Below, piece by piece: positions 9,038 through 22,106 of a stretch of DNA of 64,000 nucleotides. The notes under the pieces are model-generated. The model saw nothing but the letters and a program-made list of their open reading frames with translations. It searched no databases and was not told where the DNA came from. The DNA is taken from contig JABFRQ010000003.1 of assembly GCA_013141075.1 (NCBI GenBank), forward strand, positions 62,001 to 126,000. The letters run 5' to 3'. Source of the DNA: Methylotenera sp. (GTDB lineage Bacteria > Pseudomonadota > Gammaproteobacteria > Burkholderiales > Methylophilaceae). The position numbers and the translations under genes were made by a program. Position 1 is the stretch's first letter; the number at the start of each line of letters is the position of its first letter.

Positions 9038-9203
9038 CTAGCAATAGTCTTAAATTTAAAATTATGGATATTATTCATTAGCATAAGAAAAAGGTCTATC
9101 TTTACTTTAGCTTTAAATTTTTAGCTTCAATTTTTAGTTGATTCCAAGGGCTTATCTATATACGATAAGAGTACAAAGCATTGCAAATGATAACAAACTA
9201 AAA

Positions 9204-10640
9204 ATGTCCACCCATTTAGGCAACATTAACACAATGACAACAGCCGCTGTTGAAAACACCCAGTTAAATACCAAGATAAATGCAGAGTCTATACTCGAAT
9301 TTCAAGCCACTTTACTTTCACATGGCCATTTTGATGAAGCCACTACCGCACTAGCTACAGAACTAGCGCTAAAGCTGAACTTAGAACGCGTTTCTATTGG
9401 TATTAGCGAACATGGTCAAATGCAAGTAAAAGCGATTTCGCATAGTGCAGAAGTTGAATCTAAGCACGAGGTGAATCGCAGAATAGCGGCAGCGATGGAT
9501 GAAGCGGCTGAACAATCTGCTCTTATTGTTTATCCTGAAATGGCTGGCAGCCAACCGCGCCTCATGTTGGCACACGTAGCATTGGTGCGGGGCTCAGGCA
9601 ATCAGGTATCTACAATACCACTGGTGAATAATGGGGCAATTTTTGGCGCAATCACGCATGAGCGCAATGCCAGTAAGCTGTATCAGCCTGATGAAATTGA
9701 TGCTTTTAAACATATAGCCGCGCTGCTCGGGCCAGTTTTGTATCTAAAATGGAATGGTGAGCGGCCTTGGTATGCGCGTGTTAAGCAAGATTTTTCTGCA
9801 TGGTTCAACCGCCACTTTTCAATGACGGATGTTGGCTTCAAATTAGCCATGTACGCACTTACCGCGGGCTTGCTTGCTTTGCTGTTTATTCCTGTGCAAT
9901 ACAATATTAGCGCGCCTGCGCGGCTTGAAGGCTCAATTCAACGTGCGCTAGTAGCGCCCGAAAATGGCTATTTGCAGCATGCTTACGTACGTCCAGGTGA
10001 TAAAGTCAAAGCGCACCAAGTGTTAGCTGAGCTGGCAGATGAAGACTTGCTATTAGAAATTCGCCGCTGGCAAAGTGAGCTAGCGCAACATGAAAACACT
10101 TATAGCGCTGCATTGGCACAATCAGACCGCGTACAAATGGTGGTGAATGAATCAAAAGCTGAAGAAGCCAAAACGCAACTCGCGCTGGCAGAAGCTAAAC
10201 TTTCACGCGCACGTATTGTTGCGCCATTTGACGGTGTGATAATAAAAGGTGATTTAAAACAATTGCTTGGCGCGCCTGTGCAGCGCGGAGATACCCTACT
10301 CACCATTGCGCCTGCTGACTCTTTTCGGCTAATGATTGAAGTGGATGAGCGCGATATTTCTGAAGTTAAGCTTAATCAAGCAGGCAAACTTGCGCTGGTT
10401 TCATTGCCTGGCGAAACCTTAGCCTTTAAAGTGCTGCGCATTACACCCGCTGCGGTTAGCAAAGAGGAGCGTAACTTTTTTGAGGTTGAAGGTGCAATTA
10501 AGACTGCTGACCTTGCCACGCTACGCCCAGGTTTAGAAGGCATCGCAAAAATTAAAGCAGGGCAACATGCTTTAATTTGGTCGCTCACGCATCGTTTAAT
10601 TGATTGGGCAAGCATCACTTTTTGGAAATGGGGTCTGTAG
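9204..10640 (+). CDS. GAF domain plus HlyD-type membrane adaptor
   Basis: The ORF is open from a TTG at 9138, but ATG 9204 (MSTHLGN...) is the likelier start. An N-terminal cytoplasmic GAF-like domain (~40-200) precedes a transmembrane helix (LAMYALTAGLLALLFIPV). A periplasmic HlyD/biotinyl-lipoyl part follows: APARLEGSI...GYLQHAYVRPGDKV, a short coiled coil, and the second lipoyl half APFDGVII. HlyD adaptors bridge inner-membrane exporters to the outer membrane; a cytoplasmic GAF sensor on one is unusual. Its 3' end overlaps the M50 gene, so the two are co-translated. It is the first gene of a six-gene plus-strand locus. Confidence 0.8.
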   Translation: MSTHLGNINTMTTAAVENTQLNTKINAESILEFQATLLSHGHFDEATTALATELALKLNLERVSIGISEHGQMQVKAISHSAEVESKHEVNRRIAAAMDEAAEQSALIVYPEMAGSQPRLMLAHVALVRGSGNQVSTIPLVNNGAIFGAITHERNASKLYQPDEIDAFKHIAALLGPVLYLKWNGERPWYARVKQDFSAWFNRHFSMTDVGFKLAMYALTAGLLALLFIPVQYNISAPARLEGSIQRALVAPENGYLQHAYVRPGDKVKAHQVLAELADEDLLLEIRRWQSELAQHENTYSAALAQSDRVQMVVNESKAEEAKTQLALAEAKLSRARIVAPFDGVIIKGDLKQLLGAPVQRGDTLLTIAPADSFRLMIEVDERDISEVKLNQAGKLALVSLPGETLAFKVLRITPAAVSKEERNFFEVEGAIKTADLATLRPGLEGIAKIKAGQHALIWSLTHRLIDWASITFWKWGL

Positions 10641-12790
10641 TCGTGCGCGAATCGCTATTTAGCCCACTTTGGCACCGTTACTCTAAACAACGTCCACAAC
10701 TTAGAACGCACGTTACTGTGCAACCGCAGCGCTACCGTGACCAAACTTGGTATTTGCTCATTAACGATACTAACGGTAAGAATTTTAGAATCAACGAAGT
10801 TGCCTACCAATTTATTGGTCGTTGCGATGGGCATTTTTCAGTGCAAGAAGTGTGGAATAGCATGTTGGAATCGCTTGGTGACGACACGCCTACACAAGAT
10901 GAATTGATTCGTCTGCTTGGCGAGCTAGATCAGCGCGATTTGATTCGCTATGAAGTTATGCCAGATGTGCCAGGTATGTTTCGCCGCAAACAAGAAAAAA
11001 TTAAGCGCGAGCGCATGGCATTCATTAACCCGCTGGCTTTCAAGCTTTCGCTGTGGGATCCGAGCAAGTTTCTCGATAAAACCAAGTGGTTACAAAAACT
11101 CATTTTCAACCCGATTACATTCGCGCTGTGGCTGCTTATCGTGTTGAGTGCAATATTGGCCGCAGCCTCACATTGGGATGCACTGCGCCAGCATGCTAGC
11201 AATTATTTAACTACGCCGCTTTACTTATTTTTGGCATGGTTGAGCTTTCCGTTTATTAAAGCTTTGCATGAGCTTGGTCACGCACTAGCTGTGCGCCATT
11301 GGGATGGTCAAGTACGCGAAACTGGCGTTACTTTTTTTGTGTTTACCCCAGCGCCTTATGTGGATGCATCTGCATCCAGCGCATTCCGCAGCCAAACTCA
11401 GCGTATGACCGTAAGCGCCATGGGCATGATGGTGGAATTGCTGCTGGCCGCAATTGCACTTGTATTATGGCTAAGCACGCAATCTGGCGTGGTGCATGCG
11501 TTGGCGTTTGTCACCATGTTTATTTGTAGTGTGACCTCGCTATTATTCAACGGTAACCCGTTGTTGCGTTTTGACGCCTATTATATTCTGTGTGATGCCT
11601 TTGACCTGCCCAACTTAGCCATTCGTAGCCGCATGTATTGGGCCAACTTACTCAGGCGCTTAGTATTGGGTGCAAAAAACATTGTGCCAATGTCGTTTGC
11701 CATAGGCGAACGCAAATGGTTAATGGCCTACGCGCCTTTATCTATGGCGTATGGCTTGTTGATTATGGGGTATATTATATTTTGGGTAGGCTCAAAATCT
11801 TTCATTATCGGCTTACTCGTTGCGCTATTTGCACTGTTAACCATGCTGATTAAGCCATTACTCGGCACCATTAAAAACATCATTTCTACCACCGCTATCG
11901 GCACCTCAAGAAGCCGCGCAAAACTGGTGATTACTGCCATATTAGGCTTAGGCTTTGCCTTACTATTTTTGGTGCCAGTGCCGTTTAATACCATGGCGCA
12001 AGGTGTAGTTTGGCTGCCCGAGCAAGCCCGTATTAGGCCGATGACAGAGGGTTTTATCCAAGAATTTCGTGTGGCGCATGGCGCGCAAATTGAGCCGAAT
12101 CAAGTCATTTTACTGCTATCCGACCCTGATTTAATCGCCAGGCGCGACAACCTTAACAGTCAACTTGCTGGCATGCAGGTGGAGCAATATCATTTACTAT
12201 CGCAAGACATTGCCCGCGCAACTGGCATGGGTGAGAAAATTGAAAAAGTAAGCGCCGAATTAAAGCGGGTTAATGAGCAAATTGGTGAGCTTGAAGTGCG
12301 TAGCCAAGTGCAAGGTAAATTGGTGATGCCGCATCAAAATGACATGCTAGGCACTTTTGTAAAACAAGGCGCTGTGCTCGCTTATGTACTCAATAGCAAC
12401 ATTACAAAAGTGCGTGCTGCCATACCAGAGCCTGCTGCTGCGCTGGTGCACGAAAATTTAACAGGCGTGCAAGTCAGAACGGCCGACCACGCAAACCAAA
12501 TATTAACTGCCACATTATCAGCAGACACCCCCGCCGTAACCCGCACCCTGCCTAGCCCCGCGATGGGCGACCATGGTGGCGGCCGCTACGCCACCGACCC
12601 TAGTGATAAAAATGGTTTAACTACCACTGAACCCTTAGTACTCATTGACCTTAACTTGCCCACCACCACCTTAGAGCGCGTAGGTGCGCGCGTTAGCGTA
12701 CGTTTTGACCACGGTAACGCGCCTATTGCCACGCAAGTGTATCGCCATTTGCGGCAGCTTTTTCTGCGCTACTTTAACCCTTCAGATTAA
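10628..12790 (+). CDS. PqqD-like / M50 metalloprotease / HlyD fusion membrane protein
   Basis: A PqqD-like winged-helix region (~30-110 of the 728-residue ORF, which opens at TTG 10604) is followed by several transmembrane helices. These include HELGHALAVRHW (HExxH zinc site, residue ~222) and NPLLRFDAYY (residue ~320, the usual third-ligand Asp region of M50 site-2-type proteases). After further helices comes a periplasmic HlyD-like hairpin (RPMTEGFIQEFRVAHG... VQGKLVMP). The protein may process or thread a substrate at the inner membrane while its adaptor arm reaches the periplasm. PqqD-like domains usually bind leader peptides, which could serve substrate recognition. The start is uncertain (TTG 10604, ATG 10628 or a GTG soon after). 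M50 identity is strong; the role is inferred. Confidence 0.82.
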   Translation: MGSVVVRESLFSPLWHRYSKQRPQLRTHVTVQPQRYRDQTWYLLINDTNGKNFRINEVAYQFIGRCDGHFSVQEVWNSMLESLGDDTPTQDELIRLLGELDQRDLIRYEVMPDVPGMFRRKQEKIKRERMAFINPLAFKLSLWDPSKFLDKTKWLQKLIFNPITFALWLLIVLSAILAAASHWDALRQHASNYLTTPLYLFLAWLSFPFIKALHELGHALAVRHWDGQVRETGVTFFVFTPAPYVDASASSAFRSQTQRMTVSAMGMMVELLLAAIALVLWLSTQSGVVHALAFVTMFICSVTSLLFNGNPLLRFDAYYILCDAFDLPNLAIRSRMYWANLLRRLVLGAKNIVPMSFAIGERKWLMAYAPLSMAYGLLIMGYIIFWVGSKSFIIGLLVALFALLTMLIKPLLGTIKNIISTTAIGTSRSRAKLVITAILGLGFALLFLVPVPFNTMAQGVVWLPEQARIRPMTEGFIQEFRVAHGAQIEPNQVILLLSDPDLIARRDNLNSQLAGMQVEQYHLLSQDIARATGMGEKIEKVSAELKRVNEQIGELEVRSQVQGKLVMPHQNDMLGTFVKQGAVLAYVLNSNITKVRAAIPEPAAALVHENLTGVQVRTADHANQILTATLSADTPAVTRTLPSPAMGDHGGGRYATDPSDKNGLTTTEPLVLIDLNLPTTTLERVGARVSVRFDHGNAPIATQVYRHLRQLFLRYFNPSD

Positions 12791-12814
12791 AAAATTCAGC
12801 TGGGAAAAACTCGC

Positions 12815-14782
12815 GTGAAAGGCTTAAACACTCCTTCCCCTGGCGTTTTACATGGTCATTACCCTGAAAAAAGTACTGTCCATGAAACCTTTTTTACCGC
12901 ACTTAAACGCAAGCTAATCACTCCTTTTGCCACGCTTGGCACAATGAGCGCTAAGCCATATCAGCGGTTTATTAAGCAAGTTAATGCCCACGAACCTGCA
13001 TTCAAAAACCTTTCTGAAGCCAGAATAAAAGCGCGTTTGCGCGAGTTACAGCCTTTACTTTCTATGCACGGCATGACAAATACACTGTTAGCCGAAGTAT
13101 TTGCAATTATTAAAAAAACCTGTGCGCGCAAACTAGGCCACACGCCTTATGACACGCAGCTTATCGCCGCGCGCATTATGCTCGATGGTAAATTGGCTGA
13201 AATGGCCACGGGTGAAGGTAAAACGCTAGCAGCAGGCATTTGCGTTGCCGCAGCTGCGCTAGCGGGCATTCCAGTGCATTTAATTACCTCAAATGATTAC
13301 TTGGTGATGCGCGATTCTGCCACCTTACGCCCGCTATTCAACGCGCTGGGGCTAACTGTAGGCGCGGTGGTGCAAGGCCAAGCAGTAGATGCACGCCAAC
13401 AAGCCTATGCTTGTGATATTACTTATGTGACCGCAAAAGAGTTGGTATTTGACTATTTACGTGATCGTACGCTTTACGGCAAAACAAAATCCGCCCTGCA
13501 TAATAGCGTGGCGCAACTGGCTGGCCATGTACCAAACTCCTTGCTACGCGGGCTTTGCATGGCCATCATTGATGAGGCCGACAGCATTTTGATTGATGAA
13601 GCGCGCGTGCCTCTGATACTCTCGCAAAGCATATTGCAAGAGGCGCAAGTGGATTACCACAGCAAAGTGATGGCACTCGCCACCTCACTTAATTTGCAAG
13701 AAGATTTTGTGCTGAACCAGCGTAATTTATCGGTCGATTTGACAGAACATGGTTGGCAAAAGCTGCAAACGCTCACAAAATCGCTAGGCCAACTTCAATA
13801 CAATAAAATGCATTTAGAAGAAACGATTTGCCAAGCCTTAGCAGCGCTACATCTCTATAAAAAAGACAAACATTATTTGGTACGCGATGACGCTGTGCAT
13901 ATTATTGACGAAATTACAGGCCGCATTGCGCCTGGCAGAATATGGTCGCGCGGCTTGCACCAACTCATTGAATTAAAAGAACATTGCAAGCCAAGTGGCG
14001 AAATGGTCACGGCCGCACAAATCACTTATCAGCGCTTTTTTCCACGCTATTTACGCCTTGGCGGCATGAGCGGTACACTAAGAGAGTCATGCGCTGAATT
14101 ATTTGGCGTATTTGGCTTAAAAATAGTGAAAGTGCCGCTCAGAAAACCCAGTCAACGTATCACGCTGCCCACGCGCATTTATCGTAATCGTCAAGATTTA
14201 TGGGCGGCCGTGACTAAGCGTGTATTAGAAATGGACAAAAATGGGCGCGCTGTTTTAATTGGCACCGATTCAGTAGCAGATTCTGAAGTGTTATCGCAAC
14301 ATCTACAAAATGCGGGCTTGGCGTACGAGGTGTTGAATGCTCGTCAAGATGCACGAGAAGCCAACATTATTGCGCACGCAGGCCAGCCAAACCACATTAC
14401 GGTTTCTACCAACATGGCTGGCAGGGGCACAGATATTAGCTTAGGCAAAGGCGTGGCTGCGCTAGGCGGCATACATTTAATAAGCTGCCAACATAACGTA
14501 TCGCGGCGCATTGATAGACAATTGCTAGGCCGCTGCGCAAGGCAGGGCAACCCTGGTAGCACAGAAACTTTAACTGCAATGGACAAGCCCTTGATTGCTC
14601 ATTTTTTTCCAAAATGGGTCGCAAAGTTGGCTGGCGAACAAGGATTATCAAGCCCGCAATGGTTGGTGATGCTCATTTTACGCTGGCCACAATGGCGAGA
14701 AGAAGCGCATCAACGTGCACAACGCCATGCCATGATGATGCATGACGCACGCATAGAGCGCGACGCTTTTTTACCAGAATAG
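12815..14782 (+). CDS. Short SecA-like preprotein translocase ATPase
   Basis: This protein has 655 residues with a GTG start behind GGGAAAA. It carries the SecA DEAD motor: MATGEGKTLAAG (Walker A, ~130), IIDEADSILIDEAR (Walker B, ~254), a reduced preprotein-crosslinking region containing IIDEITGRIAPGR, NMAGRGTDISLG (~532) and RRIDRQLLGRCARQG. It ends ~90 residues later, so the helical wing/scaffold region and the zinc-binding C-tail of housekeeping SecA (~900 residues) are missing. It is therefore an accessory SecA, not the main one. Its position between the M50-HlyD gene and the adaptor/giant-protein pair suggests it powers export of the giant protein. No dedicated SecY is present; it may use the housekeeping channel. 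Confidence 0.88.
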   Translation: MKGLNTPSPGVLHGHYPEKSTVHETFFTALKRKLITPFATLGTMSAKPYQRFIKQVNAHEPAFKNLSEARIKARLRELQPLLSMHGMTNTLLAEVFAIIKKTCARKLGHTPYDTQLIAARIMLDGKLAEMATGEGKTLAAGICVAAAALAGIPVHLITSNDYLVMRDSATLRPLFNALGLTVGAVVQGQAVDARQQAYACDITYVTAKELVFDYLRDRTLYGKTKSALHNSVAQLAGHVPNSLLRGLCMAIIDEADSILIDEARVPLILSQSILQEAQVDYHSKVMALATSLNLQEDFVLNQRNLSVDLTEHGWQKLQTLTKSLGQLQYNKMHLEETICQALAALHLYKKDKHYLVRDDAVHIIDEITGRIAPGRIWSRGLHQLIELKEHCKPSGEMVTAAQITYQRFFPRYLRLGGMSGTLRESCAELFGVFGLKIVKVPLRKPSQRITLPTRIYRNRQDLWAAVTKRVLEMDKNGRAVLIGTDSVADSEVLSQHLQNAGLAYEVLNARQDAREANIIAHAGQPNHITVSTNMAGRGTDISLGKGVAALGGIHLISCQHNVSRRIDRQLLGRCARQGNPGSTETLTAMDKPLIAHFFPKWVAKLAGEQGLSSPQWLVMLILRWPQWREEAHQRAQRHAMMMHDARIERDAFLPE

Positions 14783-14843
14783 CCATTAAATCAACGGTGA
14801 TTATTTTCAATAATTTACGTTTGGCATATAAATTGCTTATATT

Positions 14844-14871
14844 CAGTTAAAAATAACCCAATTTTTAACTG
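14844..14871. other. AT-rich perfect stem-loop downstream of the secA-like gene
   Basis: CAGTTAAAAA and TTTTTAACTG form perfect 10-bp arms around an 8-base loop, 61 bp after the secA-like stop. It may be a weak terminator or mRNA 3' end stabiliser; no T-run follows. Confidence 0.4.
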
Positions 14872-14916
14872 ATTACTGACTAACCAAAATCATCGTTAGC
14901 GCCTTATATCTGCTTA

Positions 14917-14952
14917 TTACACAGGCACTTAAGTTGTCTATATAATAGACAA
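14917..14952 (+). promoter_or_regulatory. Putative promoter with palindromic operator for the adaptor/giant-protein transcript
   Basis: TTGTCTATATAATAGACAA (14934-14952) is a near-perfect palindrome, and its centre contains a consensus TATAAT -10 box (14941-14946). A weak -35 (TTACAC, 14917-14922) sits 18 bp upstream. A repressor bound here would cover the -10. The site lies in the 259-bp gap before the adaptor gene, so a separate regulated transcript for adaptor, giant protein and GGDEF is likely. Confidence 0.45.
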
Positions 14953-15041
14953 AAATATGATTTTAAAAAAGTAGTCGCGAGGAGTTTAAAATAATTTACT
15001 TCAAGAACATTACCATTTTCTATCGCTTACGCGCTATAGAT

Positions 15042-15875
15042 TTGAGAGTCACCCATTTACAAGCAAAATGCCTAGTTGCATTGGCATTGTTATTACCCGC
15101 TACTTACAGCCTAGCGGCTCAACCTTTAGGTTGCTTAATTGAGCCTGAGCGTGTGGCTGAAGTGGGCAGCCAAGTGATTGGCGTGGTTGAATCAGTTAAA
15201 GTTGAGCGCGGCGATATTGTGCGTAAAGGGCAAATACTGGCTGTATTGCGCTCAGATGTTGAGCGTGCATCGGTAGAAGTTGCCAATACACGTAGCCAAA
15301 CTGAGGCTGAAATTCGCTCTGCCGAGGCAAATCTCAGGCTAGCACGCATTACGCAAAAACGCCAAGAAGACCTTGTAACTAAGCATTTTATTTCACAGCA
15401 AGCGCTAGATAAATCAAGCGCAGATACGGCAATTGCAGAGCAAAAACTAGCGCTTAGCAAAGAGCAATTACGCACGTCGGGCAGCGAATTAGCATTGGCG
15501 CGCGCCCAGCTTGGGCAACGTACGATTCGTTCGCCGATTGATGGCATTATTACCGACCGCTATGTGTGGCCAGGTGAGCGCGTTGAAGAAAAAGCACTAT
15601 TTCGCGTGGCAAAAATTAACCCTTTACGCGTTGAAATGCTGGTTTCGGCTTCATCTTACGGCACTATTAGCAAAGGCATGCAGCTTAGCGTTGTGCCGCA
15701 ACTACCTAATTTTCAGGCGCTTGATGCCACGGTGGTCTTAGTAGACAAACTGATTGACGGCGCGAGTAATACTTTTCGCGTGCGTGCTGAAATCAAAAAT
15801 CCTGACTCAGCGATTCCCTCTGGCCTGCGTTGCAAAGTTGAGCTGCCTGAGCCAGCCCTTGCATCTAATAAATAA
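15042..15875 (+). CDS. Periplasmic adaptor (HlyD/RND membrane-fusion type)
   Basis: This is a 277-residue protein from TTG 15042. A signal peptide (VALALLLPATYSLA) is followed by a lipoyl half (VGSQVIGVVESVKVERGDIV), a coiled-coil hairpin (~70-150), the second lipoyl half (TIRSPIDGIITDRYVWPGE) and beta-barrel segments. It is the classic adaptor fold that links inner-membrane export machinery with outer-membrane ducts. A strong Shine-Dalgarno (GAGGAG, 14979-14984) lies ~58 bases upstream of the TTG, and the frame is open through it, with only ATA 14991 or ATT 14994 at the right spacing. The true start may thus be non-canonical. The stop codon lies inside the hairpin that covers the start of the giant gene. 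Confidence 0.82.
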   Translation: MRVTHLQAKCLVALALLLPATYSLAAQPLGCLIEPERVAEVGSQVIGVVESVKVERGDIVRKGQILAVLRSDVERASVEVANTRSQTEAEIRSAEANLRLARITQKRQEDLVTKHFISQQALDKSSADTAIAEQKLALSKEQLRTSGSELALARAQLGQRTIRSPIDGIITDRYVWPGERVEEKALFRVAKINPLRVEMLVSASSYGTISKGMQLSVVPQLPNFQALDATVVLVDKLIDGASNTFRVRAEIKNPDSAIPSGLRCKVELPEPALASNK

Positions 15876-15911
15876 CTTCATCATCACGTAAACCGCCCGA
15901 TGATGAAGTTA
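15873..15911 (+). promoter_or_regulatory. 13-bp hairpin burying the start codon of the giant gene
   Basis: TAACTTCATCATC (15873-15885) and GATGATGAAGTTA (15899-15911) pair perfectly around a 13-base loop. The right arm contains the ATGATG start of the 2068-codon gene; the left arm begins with the TAA stop of the adaptor gene. No T-run follows, so it is not a terminator. A ribosome finishing the adaptor would melt the stem, suggesting strict translational coupling (inferred). Confidence 0.65.
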
Positions 15912-18900
15912 AGGCCAACATCCGCCAGACAACGCCCTGAGTTTGAAGAACTCGAAGCCAGAATTCTTTATTCTGCCGACGCTGGCGCCCTGCTTCACCC
16001 CGATGCGTTTAACCTAAGCGCTGAAGTGCGCGTGCTTGACCTAAGTAGCGTTAGCCCAGTCCAAACTAGCAGTGCCCAAATTACGACAGTCACATCAGAA
16101 ATCGTGTTTGTGGATACGCGCGTGAGTAATTATCAGCAATTGGTCGATGATATTACTGCGCAAAATAGCGCAAATCGCCATATTGAAGTAAATCTGCTTG
16201 ATAGTAACAAAGATGGTATTGCGCAAATTGCTGACGCGCTGGCAGGCCGCACCGACATTAGCGCGATGCACTTAATTGCTGAAGGCAATGTGGCCGAACT
16301 ATGGCTTGGCAATAGCTTTATCACGCAAGATTCAATGGCGAACACCTATGCCAAAGCTTTACAACAAATAGGCTTAAGCCTTACTGCAGATGCAGATATT
16401 TTGGTATATGGCTGTAATTTTGGGCAAGGCAGCGCGGGTGAAACCGCAGTTGCAACGCTGGCCAATTTAACTGGTGCCGATGTTGCCGCCAGTAATGACC
16501 GCACGAGCAACGCCGCCAACTTTGGCAACTGGTCGCTAGAAGTGAATTACGGAACCATTAGCACAGATGTAGTTGTTTCTGCTTACGGGCAACAAAATTG
16601 GTTTGGCGCGCTTTCTACTTTCACCGTCACCAACACCAACGATGCTGGGGCAGGCTCATTAAGACAAGCGATTATTGACGCCAACGGCAATGCAGGGGCA
16701 GATAACATCTACTTTGCGATTGCTGGTACGGGCATACATACCATCACGCTAGCTTCTAGCCTTGATAGCATTTTAGATACAGTCAACATTGACGCCACCA
16801 CTGACGATAGCTTTGCAGCAAATGGCAATAGGCCAGCAATTGTGTTAAATGGTGGTGGCACAATGTTAGATGGCTTTGAGCTTTATAGTGGTTCTGACGG
16901 CAGTACGATTCGAGGCTTTGTAATACAAAACTTCACTCAAGATGGCATTGATATTGCTGGAACATCAGGCATCACCATAGCTGGCAACTGGATAGGCTTA
17001 AATACGGCTGGCACTGGCGCTGCGGGTAGCGCAAATGGCGTTAATATTTGGGATGCTAACAACAATATTATTGGTGGCACGACAGCGGCTGACCGCAATG
17101 TTATTTCTGGTAACACCTTAGGCATTTACATTGGAAATAGTTTAAGTAACACGAGTGCTGGCAACCAAGTGCAGGGCAACTATATTGGCACCAACTCTGA
17201 TGGAACAGCATCAATATCCAACACTCATGGTGTTTATATACAATCTGCAAACAATACTGTTGGTGGGCTTTTATCAGGTGCTAGAAACATCATTTCAGGC
17301 AATACTGGTCACGGCATTGTAATGCAAGGTATTGATGCGCATAACAACTTAGTGCAAGGCAACTACATTGGTACAGATGTCACCGGCACGCTAGACATCA
17401 GCGGCACGACTGCAACATTGGGACAGTCTGGTGTTGATGTAATTGACGGCGCTTCATACAATTTAATTGGCGGCACCACTGTTGCAGCGCGCAATATTAT
17501 TTCTGGTAACAATTGGTTTGGCGTTGAGATGGTGCAGGTAGGCACTAACAACAACCTAGTGCAAGGCAACTATATTGGTACAGACGTCACAGGCACAGTA
17601 GCACTGGGCAACTCAGAAGGTGGTGCTTCTTTTTGGAATGGTGCAGCCAACAACACCATAGGCGGCAGCGTGGCTGGTGCGCGCAACATTATTTCAGGTA
17701 ACTTAAACAAAGGCGTACTGATTGGTGGCACCACAACGCCAACGGGCAATAATATTAAAGGCAACTATATTGGTACCGATGTAACAGGTACTGTAGCGCT
17801 AGCCAATGCAACTTATGGGGTTTATATTCAAAGTGGTAATGGCAATACCATTGGCGGCACCAACGCACTTGAAAGAAACATAATTTCTGGCAATGCAGAT
17901 AGCGGAGTTTACATCACGGGTTTTGACTCAATAAGCAATGTAGTTTTAGGTAATTATATTGGCACTGATGCTAGTGGAACAGTCGCCATAAGCAATGGCG
18001 GCTATGGCGTGCATATTGATAACGGCGCTAGCAACAACGTAATTGGTGATGGCGTAGCTGGTGCGCGTAGTATTGTATCGGGCAATGCTGATATTGGCAT
18101 TTATGTAGCTGATGCTAGCACTAACGGCAACAAGATTTTGGGCAATTATGTCGGGCTAAACGCAGCTGGCAATGCTGCGATATCGAATGGCTCGTTCGGT
18201 ATTGCCGTTGATTTCCAAGCTCAAAACACCCAAATAGGCGGCTCAGCAGCTGGCGAAGGTAATGTAATATCTGGCAATACAGGCACCAATGGCAGCCTTT
18301 CACGTGGCGGCATTTATTTGTATGCCGAATCTACTGTCGTACAAGGCAATATTATTGGCTTAAGCTCAGACAAATCAACCATTATCGCCAACGGTGGCGT
18401 ACCAGATATTGGTGGTTATAGTGCGGGTATTTTTATTTCTACCGCGCTTGGAAGTACACTCATTGGTGGAGATTCAGTTGGTCAGGGCAACACCATTGCA
18501 GGCAATATTGGTGACGGTATTGGCAATTTTGGCTCTGATGTAGCAATTTTAGGTAATAATATTTACAGCAACACAGCACTAGGAATTGATCTAAATGTTG
18601 ATGGCGTTTCGTTGAATGATCCATCAGCCGCCTTGGATGGAGACGCAGGGCCAAATAACCTGCAAAACTTCCCGCTACTCTATAATGCAATTGTTAATGG
18701 CGGCACACTGACTCTTACAGGTGAAATTCGCAGCGCGGCCAATACCACGTATCGACTAGAGTTTTTCCGCAGCCCATTAGGTACTGAAGACCCCACAGGC
18801 TATGGCGAAGGCAAAGATTATTTATCTTTTCTAGACGTCACCACAGACGCGACTGGCTTTGCCTCAATCAATACTTTCACCTCTAATATTTGGGGGGTCG

Positions 18901-21900
18901 TTGCAACTGATCGTATTAGCGCAACTGCTACTGAAATTGTAGCGGGCAATAATAGAAGTACATCAGAGTTCTCGCAAAATATAATCGTAGTCGAAAACTT
19001 TGCGCCAGGCATCACCGCTCAAAATGTAGTTGGGGTGAATGAAGATACGCTACTCGCATTTACTGGCATTAACACAATTAACGTTACAGATACTGACGGC
19101 AACCTTGCCAGCGCCAATTTCAACGTTAGCAGCGGCATATTAAATGTTAGCCTCACGGATGGTGCAGCTATCTCTATTGGTGCTAACAACAGTAGTAATT
19201 TAACGCTCACTGGCACGCAAATGCAAATTCAAGCCGCGGTGGCAACTCTGACTTATCAAGGCAATCTCAACTTCAATGGTAGCGATGTACTCTATATCAC
19301 TGCAACTGACAGTCTAGGCGCCAGTGCTACTGCAAACACGACAATCAATGTCGCGCCAATCAACGATGCGCCCATCTTAAGCAATCTACTTAACACCCCA
19401 ATTTTTATTGAAAACGGCGCACCTGTAGTATTAGATGCCAATATAACAATTAGCGATATTGAATTAGATGCGCTCAATGGCGGCTTGGGCAATTATGCTG
19501 GGGCACACGCATTCTTATTACGTAATGGTGGCCCAAATGCAGAAGATGTATTTTCTGCCACTGGCAACTTAAGCCCAATTACGCAAGGTGGCATTTTAAC
19601 TTTATCTGGTGTAGATATTGGCTTAATCACCCTGAACAGCAATGGTACTTTAACGTTAGTATTTAACAGCAATGCCACTACCGCAAGAGTGAATGAAACG
19701 CTACATTCATTAGCCTACGCTAATACCAGCGAGGCTCCGCCAGCCTCTGTGCAAATTGCCTGGGTTTTCTCAGATGACAACACAGGCAGTCAGGGTTTAG
19801 GTGGCTTACAGGCGACGTCAGCAATTACTAACGTCGCCATCACGCCTGTGAATGATGCGCCGACCACCACGCCTGTGACCTTGGCGCCGATTGCCGAAGA
19901 CAGCGGCGCGCGCCTCATTACCCAAGCCGAGTTGTTGGCCAATGCGGCGGATGTAGATACGCCGTTAGCCAGTTTGACGGCTTCAGGTCTCAGCATCAGT
20001 GCGGGGACTGGCTCACTGGTCGATAACGGCAATGGCACTTGGACGTATACGCCTGCCTTGAATGATGATACTGCGGTGAGCTTTACTTATACCGTGAGTG
20101 ATGGCAGCCTCACGGCAGCAGGCTCAGCGGCTTTAGACATCACGCCTGTGAATGATGCGCCGACCACCACGCCTGTGACCTTGGCGCCGATTGCCGAAGA
20201 CAGCGGCGCGCGCCTCATTACCCAAGCCGAGTTGTTGGCCAATGCGGCGGATGTAGATACGCCGTTGGCCAGTTTGACGGCTTCAGGTCTCAGCATCAGT
20301 GCGGGGACTGGCTCACTGGTCGATAACGGCAATGGCACTTGGACGTATACGCCTGCCTTGAATGATGATACTGCGGTGAGCTTTACTTATACCGTGAGTG
20401 ATGGCAGCCTCACGGCAGCAGGCTCAGCGGCTTTAGACATCACGCCTGTGAATGATGCGCCGACCACCACGCCTGTGACCTTGGCGCCGATTGCCGAAGA
20501 CAGCGGCGCGCGCCTCATTACCCAAGCCGAGTTGTTGGCCAATGCGGCGGATATTGATTCACCATTAGCAAGCTTAACGGCCACAGGCTTGAGTATTAGT
20601 GCAGGTGCTGGCTCACTCGTAGATAACTTAAACGGCACTTGGACTTATACGCCTGCCTTGAATGATGATACTGCGGTGAGCTTTACTTATACCGTGAGTG
20701 ATGGCAGCCTCACGGCAGCAGGCTCAGCGGCTTTAGACATCACGCCTGTGAATGATGCGCCGACCACCACGCCTGTGACCTTGGCGCCGATTGCCGAAGA
20801 CAGCGGCGCGCGCCTCATTACCCAAGCCGAGTTGTTGGCCAATGCGGCGGATATTGATTCACCATTAGCAAGCTTAACGGCCACAGGCTTGAGTATTAGT
20901 GCAGGTGCTGGCTCACTCGTAGATAACTTAAACGGCACTTGGACTTATACGCCAGCTTTGAATGATGATACCGCGGTAAGTTTTAGTTATATTATTTCAG
21001 ACGCAACAACAGCAATAAGTGGGGCAGCCAATTTAAACATTACTGCGGTCAATGATGCACCGACCACAACACCTGTGACTTTAGCGGCCATTATTGAAAA
21101 TAGTGGGCCACGCCTCATTACGCAGGCACAATTGCTGGCTAATACTGCTGATGTAGATAGCCCCAACCTAACTGCTACAGGCTTGAGCATTAGCAATGGC
21201 GCAGGCAGCTTAGCCAATAATGGTGATGGCACTTGGACATACACGCCCACCACTGATGACAACGCCGCGGTGTCATTTATTTACTTTGTTACCGATGGTA
21301 ATTTAACGGCGGCCACTTCTGCCAATATGGATATTACTCCTTTAGATTTGCCAGTAACGCCTACGCCACCAGCGCCAGTTCCTACACCTACGCCACCAGC
21401 GCCAGTTCCTACACCTACCCCACCAGCGCCAGTTCCGACACCTACACCACCAGCGGTAGTTCCTACACCACCAGCTGTGGTAACACCTGTAACTCCAGCC
21501 GACCCCTTGGTGAATGGCAACAACGATGCGGTTTTTACAAGCACTAGAGAAACCATCAATAATAACGTGCAACGCACCAATGTGTTTAGCTCAGCAAACT
21601 TAGATAGCTCTTTAATCAGATTTACCAACCAATTGATAACACCATTTGGCAATATTTCTACTGCATTGCAAGTGTTAGAAACCATTGATTTGCCAGCTTT
21701 TACCAACACTAACTTAACTGGCAATTTAAGCGCTTTGGTCAATAGCATCACGCAAAATACCAATATTCAAGTTGAAACCATTAAGTTTTTTGAACCCAAT
21801 CTGCCGCAGAATCAAAAAATTGCCCAACTCATTATTGAGCATAAAACTGCGCTCTCTAGCGTGGCGGTTACAGTTGGCTTGGTCACTTGGGCGGTTCAAC

Positions 21901-22106
21901 TGGGCGCTTTATTCACCTCGGTTCTAGCCACAGTACCAGCTTGGAAAAACTTAGACCCAATTGCTATTTTAGGCAAAGACGATGAAGATGACGCCCAGTG
22001 GGATGTATCTGACGATGAAGACGAAGAAATTGAAGAGAACGCTGAAGAATCTGCTGCAGATATGTGGTCAGGCAAAAATAGGGCAAACTTAAACCGTAAT
22101 ATTTAA
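15900..22106 (+). CDS. Giant LEPR-like/DUF4347 surface protein with beta-helix and cadherin-like repeats
   Basis: This gene encodes 2068 residues with no normal Sec signal. The N-terminus carries FEELEARILYSADA, resembling the LEPR-XLL motif of very large exported proteins. A DUF4347 domain follows (~67-237), beginning EIVFVDTRV and including ILVYGCNFG. Next comes a parallel beta-helix region (~240-930) with many NxxGGT..ARNIISGN / GNYIGT repeats, then cadherin/Ig-like modules, including four almost identical 100-residue repeats and a divergent fifth (~1313-1811). A Pro/Thr linker follows (~1814-1866). Near the C-terminus there is a hydrophobic helix (VAVTVGLVTWAVQLGALFTS) and a strongly acidic tail (DDEDEEIEENAEES). 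The protein probably sits at the cell surface or spans the envelope, anchored at its C-terminus. It is likely the substrate of the upstream SecA-like/M50/adaptor genes. Confidence 0.85.
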   Translation: MMKLRPTSARQRPEFEELEARILYSADAGALLHPDAFNLSAEVRVLDLSSVSPVQTSSAQITTVTSEIVFVDTRVSNYQQLVDDITAQNSANRHIEVNLLDSNKDGIAQIADALAGRTDISAMHLIAEGNVAELWLGNSFITQDSMANTYAKALQQIGLSLTADADILVYGCNFGQGSAGETAVATLANLTGADVAASNDRTSNAANFGNWSLEVNYGTISTDVVVSAYGQQNWFGALSTFTVTNTNDAGAGSLRQAIIDANGNAGADNIYFAIAGTGIHTITLASSLDSILDTVNIDATTDDSFAANGNRPAIVLNGGGTMLDGFELYSGSDGSTIRGFVIQNFTQDGIDIAGTSGITIAGNWIGLNTAGTGAAGSANGVNIWDANNNIIGGTTAADRNVISGNTLGIYIGNSLSNTSAGNQVQGNYIGTNSDGTASISNTHGVYIQSANNTVGGLLSGARNIISGNTGHGIVMQGIDAHNNLVQGNYIGTDVTGTLDISGTTATLGQSGVDVIDGASYNLIGGTTVAARNIISGNNWFGVEMVQVGTNNNLVQGNYIGTDVTGTVALGNSEGGASFWNGAANNTIGGSVAGARNIISGNLNKGVLIGGTTTPTGNNIKGNYIGTDVTGTVALANATYGVYIQSGNGNTIGGTNALERNIISGNADSGVYITGFDSISNVVLGNYIGTDASGTVAISNGGYGVHIDNGASNNVIGDGVAGARSIVSGNADIGIYVADASTNGNKILGNYVGLNAAGNAAISNGSFGIAVDFQAQNTQIGGSAAGEGNVISGNTGTNGSLSRGGIYLYAESTVVQGNIIGLSSDKSTIIANGGVPDIGGYSAGIFISTALGSTLIGGDSVGQGNTIAGNIGDGIGNFGSDVAILGNNIYSNTALGIDLNVDGVSLNDPSAALDGDAGPNNLQNFPLLYNAIVNGGTLTLTGEIRSAANTTYRLEFFRSPLGTEDPTGYGEGKDYLSFLDVTTDATGFASINTFTSNIWGVVATDRISATATEIVAGNNRSTSEFSQNIIVVENFAPGITAQNVVGVNEDTLLAFTGINTINVTDTDGNLASANFNVSSGILNVSLTDGAAISIGANNSSNLTLTGTQMQIQAAVATLTYQGNLNFNGSDVLYITATDSLGASATANTTINVAPINDAPILSNLLNTPIFIENGAPVVLDANITISDIELDALNGGLGNYAGAHAFLLRNGGPNAEDVFSATGNLSPITQGGILTLSGVDIGLITLNSNGTLTLVFNSNATTARVNETLHSLAYANTSEAPPASVQIAWVFSDDNTGSQGLGGLQATSAITNVAITPVNDAPTTTPVTLAPIAEDSGARLITQAELLANAADVDTPLASLTASGLSISAGTGSLVDNGNGTWTYTPALNDDTAVSFTYTVSDGSLTAAGSAALDITPVNDAPTTTPVTLAPIAEDSGARLITQAELLANAADVDTPLASLTASGLSISAGTGSLVDNGNGTWTYTPALNDDTAVSFTYTVSDGSLTAAGSAALDITPVNDAPTTTPVTLAPIAEDSGARLITQAELLANAADIDSPLASLTATGLSISAGAGSLVDNLNGTWTYTPALNDDTAVSFTYTVSDGSLTAAGSAALDITPVNDAPTTTPVTLAPIAEDSGARLITQAELLANAADIDSPLASLTATGLSISAGAGSLVDNLNGTWTYTPALNDDTAVSFSYIISDATTAISGAANLNITAVNDAPTTTPVTLAAIIENSGPRLITQAQLLANTADVDSPNLTATGLSISNGAGSLANNGDGTWTYTPTTDDNAAVSFIYFVTDGNLTAATSANMDITPLDLPVTPTPPAPVPTPTPPAPVPTPTPPAPVPTPTPPAVVPTPPAVVTPVTPADPLVNGNNDAVFTSTRETINNNVQRTNVFSSANLDSSLIRFTNQLITPFGNISTALQVLETIDLPAFTNTNLTGNLSALVNSITQNTNIQVETIKFFEPNLPQNQKIAQLIIEHKTALSSVAVTVGLVTWAVQLGALFTSVLATVPAWKNLDPIAILGKDDEDDAQWDVSDDEDEEIEENAEESAADMWSGKNRANLNRNI
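19839..21038 (+). repeat. Four tandem 300-bp repeats in the giant gene
   Basis: Units at 19839-20138, 20139-20438, 20439-20738 and 20739-21038 encode cadherin-like modules starting ITPVNDAPTTTPV. Units 1 and 2 differ by about one base. Units 3 and 4 share a different second half. The first ~110 bases are identical in all four and noticeably GC-richer than the rest of the gene. A fifth divergent unit follows to ~21332. Confidence 0.92.

Follow-up and report, generated by a model that had tools for sequence, protein, structure and literature searches.

How is a surface-type protein of 2068 residues translated when both possible start codons of its gene are folded into an RNA hairpin that begins at the stop codon of the preceding gene? 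This is the question raised by a junction in the window (the whole stretch of Methylotenera sp. DNA analysed, 64,000 nucleotides). The features of the junction are as follows.

15042..15875, + strand: periplasmic adaptor of the HlyD/RND_mfp family, with a TTG start, lacking the C-terminal tail that the nearest orthologs carry
15873..15885, + strand: 5' arm of the hairpin, its first 3 nt being the adaptor TAA stop (from sequence, fold and ribosome-edge scan)
15886..15898, + strand: hairpin loop of 13 nt, without a Shine-Dalgarno (SD) sequence (from sequence and junction comparison)
15899..15911, + strand: 3' arm of the hairpin, holding ATG 15900 and ATG 15903, the two possible giant starts (from sequence, ORF and fold)
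15900..22106, + strand: giant of 2068 aa, with DUF4347, cadherin-like/tandem-95 repeats, a C-terminal transmembrane (TM)-like helix and an acidic tail
15939..16001, + strand: LEPR-XLL domain of the giant, residues 14-34 (NCBIfam NF012209, 19.6 bits vs. a cut-off of 17)

A perfect stem at the start of the giant gene

Read directly from the sequence, positions 15873-15885 (TAACTTCATCATC) are the exact reverse complement of positions 15899-15911 (GATGATGAAGTTA), which gives a 13-bp stem with a 13-nt loop, preceded by an AU-rich stretch (AATAAATAA). The 81-nt junction folded at -20.7 kcal/mol (z about -4.5 to -4.7), with 0 of 200 shuffles being equally stable, and the hairpin alone had a dG of -15.9 kcal/mol. 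The stem showed a mean pair probability of 0.99 and was kept in contexts of up to 1 kb. According to the folding computation, exposing both giant ATGs on free mRNA would cost ~15 kcal/mol. The downstream start is thus held in a stable structure, as in gene pairs coupled through RNA unfolding.

The N-terminal domain of the giant scored above the curated cut-off, placing the protein among the LEPR-XLL giants. Since this domain begins at residue 14 and since ATG 15900/15903 are the only in-frame ATG, GTG or TTG codons between the LEPR-XLL motif and the in-frame stop upstream of it, the true giant start is expected inside the stem, and an alternative start outside it was rejected. SD-type pairing at the giant start was essentially nil (+0.6 kcal/mol). 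A preliminary description of this DNA had claimed that the giant start is locked in a 13-bp hairpin that includes the adaptor stop, leaving no accessible ribosome site. Both claims held: the pairing is perfect, the TAA opens the 5' arm, both ATGs lie in the 3' arm, no usable start falls outside the stem and there is no SD.

The genome background against which we have compared the junction comprised 784 kb, namely the window plus pieces from around it. The background is approximate, its 647 gene starts having been picked mechanically. Of the 647 gene starts, 646 had perfect stems over the start that were 2-9 bp at their longest, and only the giant reached 13 bp. Dinucleotide shuffles of the junction (n = 12,000) yielded stems of at most 11 bp and shuffled random genome positions (n = 18,000) stems of at most 12 bp. 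By extrapolation, the chance of a 13-bp stem is ~1e-5 per start, i.e., a few hundredths expected per genome. This confirmed that the stem is real and statistically unusual for this genome. SD pairing as poor as that of the giant was found in 6.6% of the sampled genes. In total folding energy (-40 to +41) the junction was not extreme, with 9.9% of the starts being equally stable. It is the long perfect stem, not the overall folding energy, that sets the giant start apart.

Three familiar kinds of element were considered for the hairpin and rejected. An Rfam search of 14700-16300 matched no family, which argued against a known RNA family. Neither strand carries a U-tract or T-run at the hairpin and no terminator-like site was called, so that an intrinsic terminator was discarded. 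A dispersed repeat or REP element was ruled out, the exact sequence AACTTCATCATC occurring in the genome only at the two hairpin arms. The same genome does carry many dispersed, mostly intergenic inverted repeats of 24-31 bp, of the family TGTCATTGCGAGCGTAGCG... (L149, L152, L154, L174 and others); these long repeats belong to families different from the hairpin arm.

The ribosome on the adaptor stop codon

The downstream edge of a translating ribosome was taken to lie at P-site +15, and this assumed footprint was used in the ribosome-edge scan. With the adaptor TAA in the A site, the modelled edge fell at 15885, the exact end of the 5' arm, leaving 0 stem pairs. Translation of the adaptor gene would thus reach into the structure, the stem being gone when a ribosome stands on the TAA. 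Coupling through RNA unfolding is established for other gene pairs, examples being phage f1 VII-IX, MS2 coat-lysis and E. coli rpmI-rplT (review PMC12548453), and there, as here, the downstream start is hidden in a structure cleared by the ribosomes of the upstream gene. Unlike in those pairs, whose coupling is established, coupling is predicted here and the opened junction offers no freed binding site to a new ribosome: it has no SD, and the terminating ribosome (3' edge at ~15885) overlaps the 30S site. For both reasons, fresh 30S entry at 15900 is unlikely.

The other known route is termination-reinitiation at overlapping stop and start codons (PMC10666635, PMC6728339), in which one ribosome would serve both genes, as proposed here. 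In contrast to such pairs, whose stop and start overlap or lie a few nt apart, the window has a spacing of +24 nt with the 13-bp stem in between. The two ORFs share one reading frame at a distance of 8 codons, with a single TAA between them. In native gene pairs of E. coli and Haloferax, re-initiation was nearly abolished at ~20 nt (PMC10666635), a limit close to the spacing in the window; other studies found that distances of up to +25 or even +40 were tolerated, frequently at lower efficiency, and structure directly after the upstream stop correlates with poor coupling (review PMC12548453). Inefficient re-initiation is therefore predicted from the 24-nt spacing, the missing SD and the structure after the stop. 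Hence, the earlier wording "a neat way" was overstated as regards the matching of the two proteins.

We propose the following sequence of events. On free mRNA, the hairpin would hide both ATGs of the SD-less giant ORF and translation would be very low. In the model, a ribosome arriving at the adaptor stop covers the entire 5' arm and frees the ATGs. The likely route onward is that the same ribosome moves on over the 24 nt and re-initiates with low efficiency. The net effect would be to damp the giant protein strongly, together with a residual dependence on adaptor translation. Such dependence is mechanically sensible, since the starts are hidden, no SD is available and the ribosome at the TAA clears the stem; on the modelled footprint, translation of the giant probably has to follow that of the adaptor gene.

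The likeliest reading in our hands, to which we commit only tentatively, is that the hairpin is a lineage-specific structure sequestering the start codon, with tight repression of the giant and a weak or residual dependence on adaptor translation. The preliminary description had made giant synthesis depend on adaptor synthesis, and this was partly supported: the hidden starts and the removal of the stem by a ribosome at the TAA stand, whereas the predicted coupling is weak and the stem is not conserved (see below). As the data stand, the hairpin is one lineage's instance of an already known principle. If the gate works, it would provide a clean natural test of RNA unfolding vs. re-initiation by the same ribosome, because the stem spans exactly the distance from stop to start and no SD recruits a fresh ribosome. 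If true, it would also mean that a single mutation can place a costly giant protein under the control of a partner gene.

Relatives, the origin of the stem and competing explanations

Searches with the M50 protein, the adaptor and the giant at the level of family, order and class recovered the gene cluster, and we have compared 29 further junctions where a LEPR-XLL start comes after an adaptor or SecA-like gene. None of the 29 had a perfect stem above 9 bp at any candidate giant start, most stems being 3-6 bp. The stem was absent from the nearest orthologs, G077 and G078 (adaptor 69% identical, none of the compared relatives being closer), whose giant starts do have SD-type sites (-5.6 and -3.8 kcal/mol, respectively). 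Likewise, G118 (adaptor 54%) had no stem above 9 bp. The 13-bp stem is thus carried by one genome only and lacks the marks of a conserved cis-regulatory RNA, namely retention in orthologs with compensatory changes. Its absence from all comparable junctions, nearest orthologs included, argues that it is not ancestral. Conservation in relatives was one of the checks by which the hairpin proposal was to stand or fall, and the result went against it, although the closest adaptor available is only 69% identical.

The adaptor in the window ends in GLRCKVELPEPALASNK, while the nearest orthologs run 32-39 residues further with a Pro-rich GALKLSP tail. The missing tail indicates a rebuilding of the junction within this lineage. 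Most of the 3' arm is fixed by the codons with which the giant begins (MMKL), making the 5' arm the likelier newcomer, probably acquired during that rebuilding. G077 has a stretch like the 3' arm (ATGAAATTACGC, MKLRP; GTGATGAAATTA, MKLRPDS..), but no 5' arm to pair with it. The rebuilding possibly occurred by template switching, which is documented to produce perfect stems in a single step (PMC8794818). The hairpins described there resemble this one in being a perfect reverse-complement pair, lineage-restricted and placed beside a rearranged end; here the event is inferred. A search of the genome contigs for adaptors retrieved only distant ones, at most 36% identical.

These data also feed the strongest competing explanation, a serious possibility in our view, that the stem arose recently through a template-switch (or chance) mutation and regulates little or nothing, a mutation in which the reverse complement of the start region was copied just upstream, beside the rearranged adaptor end. 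Its restriction to one genome, the lost adaptor tail, the one-step origin of perfect stems and a 3' arm fixed by coding are all compatible with such an accident. However, a 13-bp stem with a dG of about -16 on an SD-less start is expected to affect translation whether or not it was selected, and this one runs exactly from stop to start.

The conserved adjacency of adaptor and giant speaks for the sequestering reading, as does a gene layout seen in relatives. In eight relatives of the locus, the stop of the preceding gene and the giant start overlap, by -1 or -4 nt in seven (L074, L075, L076, L096, L110, L111, L195) and over a longer stretch in one (L199), and these match the arrangement of termination-reinitiation pairs. 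It is a hint, though no proof, that the giant has repeatedly been linked to the gene ahead of it. A stricter version of our proposal, that of an SD-less "one-ribosome" gate in which a stop-to-start hairpin of footprint length, gained by one template switch, replaced the stop/start overlap of some relatives, so that only a ribosome fresh from the adaptor gene could translate the giant, seems to us quite improbable.

It is unlikely that the hairpin is a switch relieved otherwise than by adaptor translation, i.e., by a small RNA, an RNA-binding protein, or a cleavage that separates the mRNAs and protects the adaptor 3' end. A stable stem at a cistron border would suit such a switch, and the AU-rich AATAAATAA ahead of it could bind Hfq or S1. 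Against this, the loop has no GGA for CsrA-type binding on inspection of the sequence, no Rfam family, U-tract or terminator call was obtained, and nothing is conserved in the relatives.

Read-through of the adaptor TAA, promoted by the stem and yielding an adaptor-giant fusion, is very improbable: the shared frame, the single TAA, the 24-nt distance and the structure directly at the stop would permit it, but one pair in three would share a frame by chance, nothing in relatives corresponds to the linker LHHHVNRP, the relatives have separate starts and TAA is generally the least leaky stop. Equally hard to credit is a palindrome acting as a DNA-level operator or transcription terminator: its dyad symmetry would suit such a role, but it sits at the junction of co-directed ORFs, with an arm sequence found nowhere else in the genome and no T-run or terminator-like site on either strand.

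G077 has two adaptor-giant junctions (L145, L147). Just upstream of the giant start, both copies contain, in another frame, MKLRPDSLRSR followed by a stop. This peptide resembles the N-terminus of the giant in the window and may be the relic of a start, or else a small ORF upstream.

The gene cluster and the giant protein

The region upstream of the adaptor contains the following features.

9138..10640, + strand: HlyD-type protein with an N-terminal extension, same gene cluster
10604..12790, + strand: M50 peptidase-like/PqqD/HlyD membrane protein, same gene cluster
12815..14782, + strand: SecA-like ATPase, same gene cluster
14918..14946, + strand: best promoter-like site (TACACA-17-TATAAT) in the 259-nt gap before the adaptor

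Between 14700 and 16100, we have observed 6 promoter-like sites for 1.9 expected. The 259-nt gap (14783-15041) holds a cluster of such sites, as well as a 12-bp inverted repeat at 14843-14872. The adjacency of adaptor and giant is conserved, even apart from the SecA-like gene (G077, G078). This adjacency and the promoter-like cluster ahead of the adaptor make a single unit plausible, and the two genes may form a transcription unit with its own promoter. In G077/G078, the M50/SecA-like genes are on contigs other than those of the adaptor-giant pair (L067/L068 vs. L146/L147).

The set composed of the HlyD-like protein, the M50/PqqD/HlyD fusion, the SecA-like ATPase, the adaptor and the LEPR-XLL giant (9138-22106 in the window) is a recurrent cluster with a patchy distribution across the order. 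At an E value of 1e-30, the M50 protein was detected in 66 of 399 genomes of the order, a count that includes weaker, probably different relatives. The SecA-like ATPase (655 aa) scored well below the cut-offs for full-length SecA. Judging from gene content, the cluster looks like a dedicated system for the export or anchoring of giant proteins. In the literature naming LEPR-XLL or DUF4347, no title or abstract dealt with such a locus, and no functional study was found.

That the giant is the substrate of the adaptor is unproven. The preliminary description had further held that the hairpin avoids making an unexportable protein, which is a guess. The term "unexportable" is likewise unproven, and the giant ends in a conserved membrane helix and acidic tail. 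Specifically, the TM-like helix is followed by PAWKNLDPIAIL and then by the acidic tail, an arrangement common to two relatives. This C-terminal end suggests a membrane anchor or a sorting tag, not a freely secreted substrate. The LEPR-XLL giants encoded next to the M50/SecA-like/HlyD cluster (21850-22106 in the window; L072, L076) share a TM-like helix, PAW[KR]xLDP..[IV]L and an acidic tail, and this shared helix/PAW[KR]xLDP/acidic tail is a candidate anchor or sorting signal.
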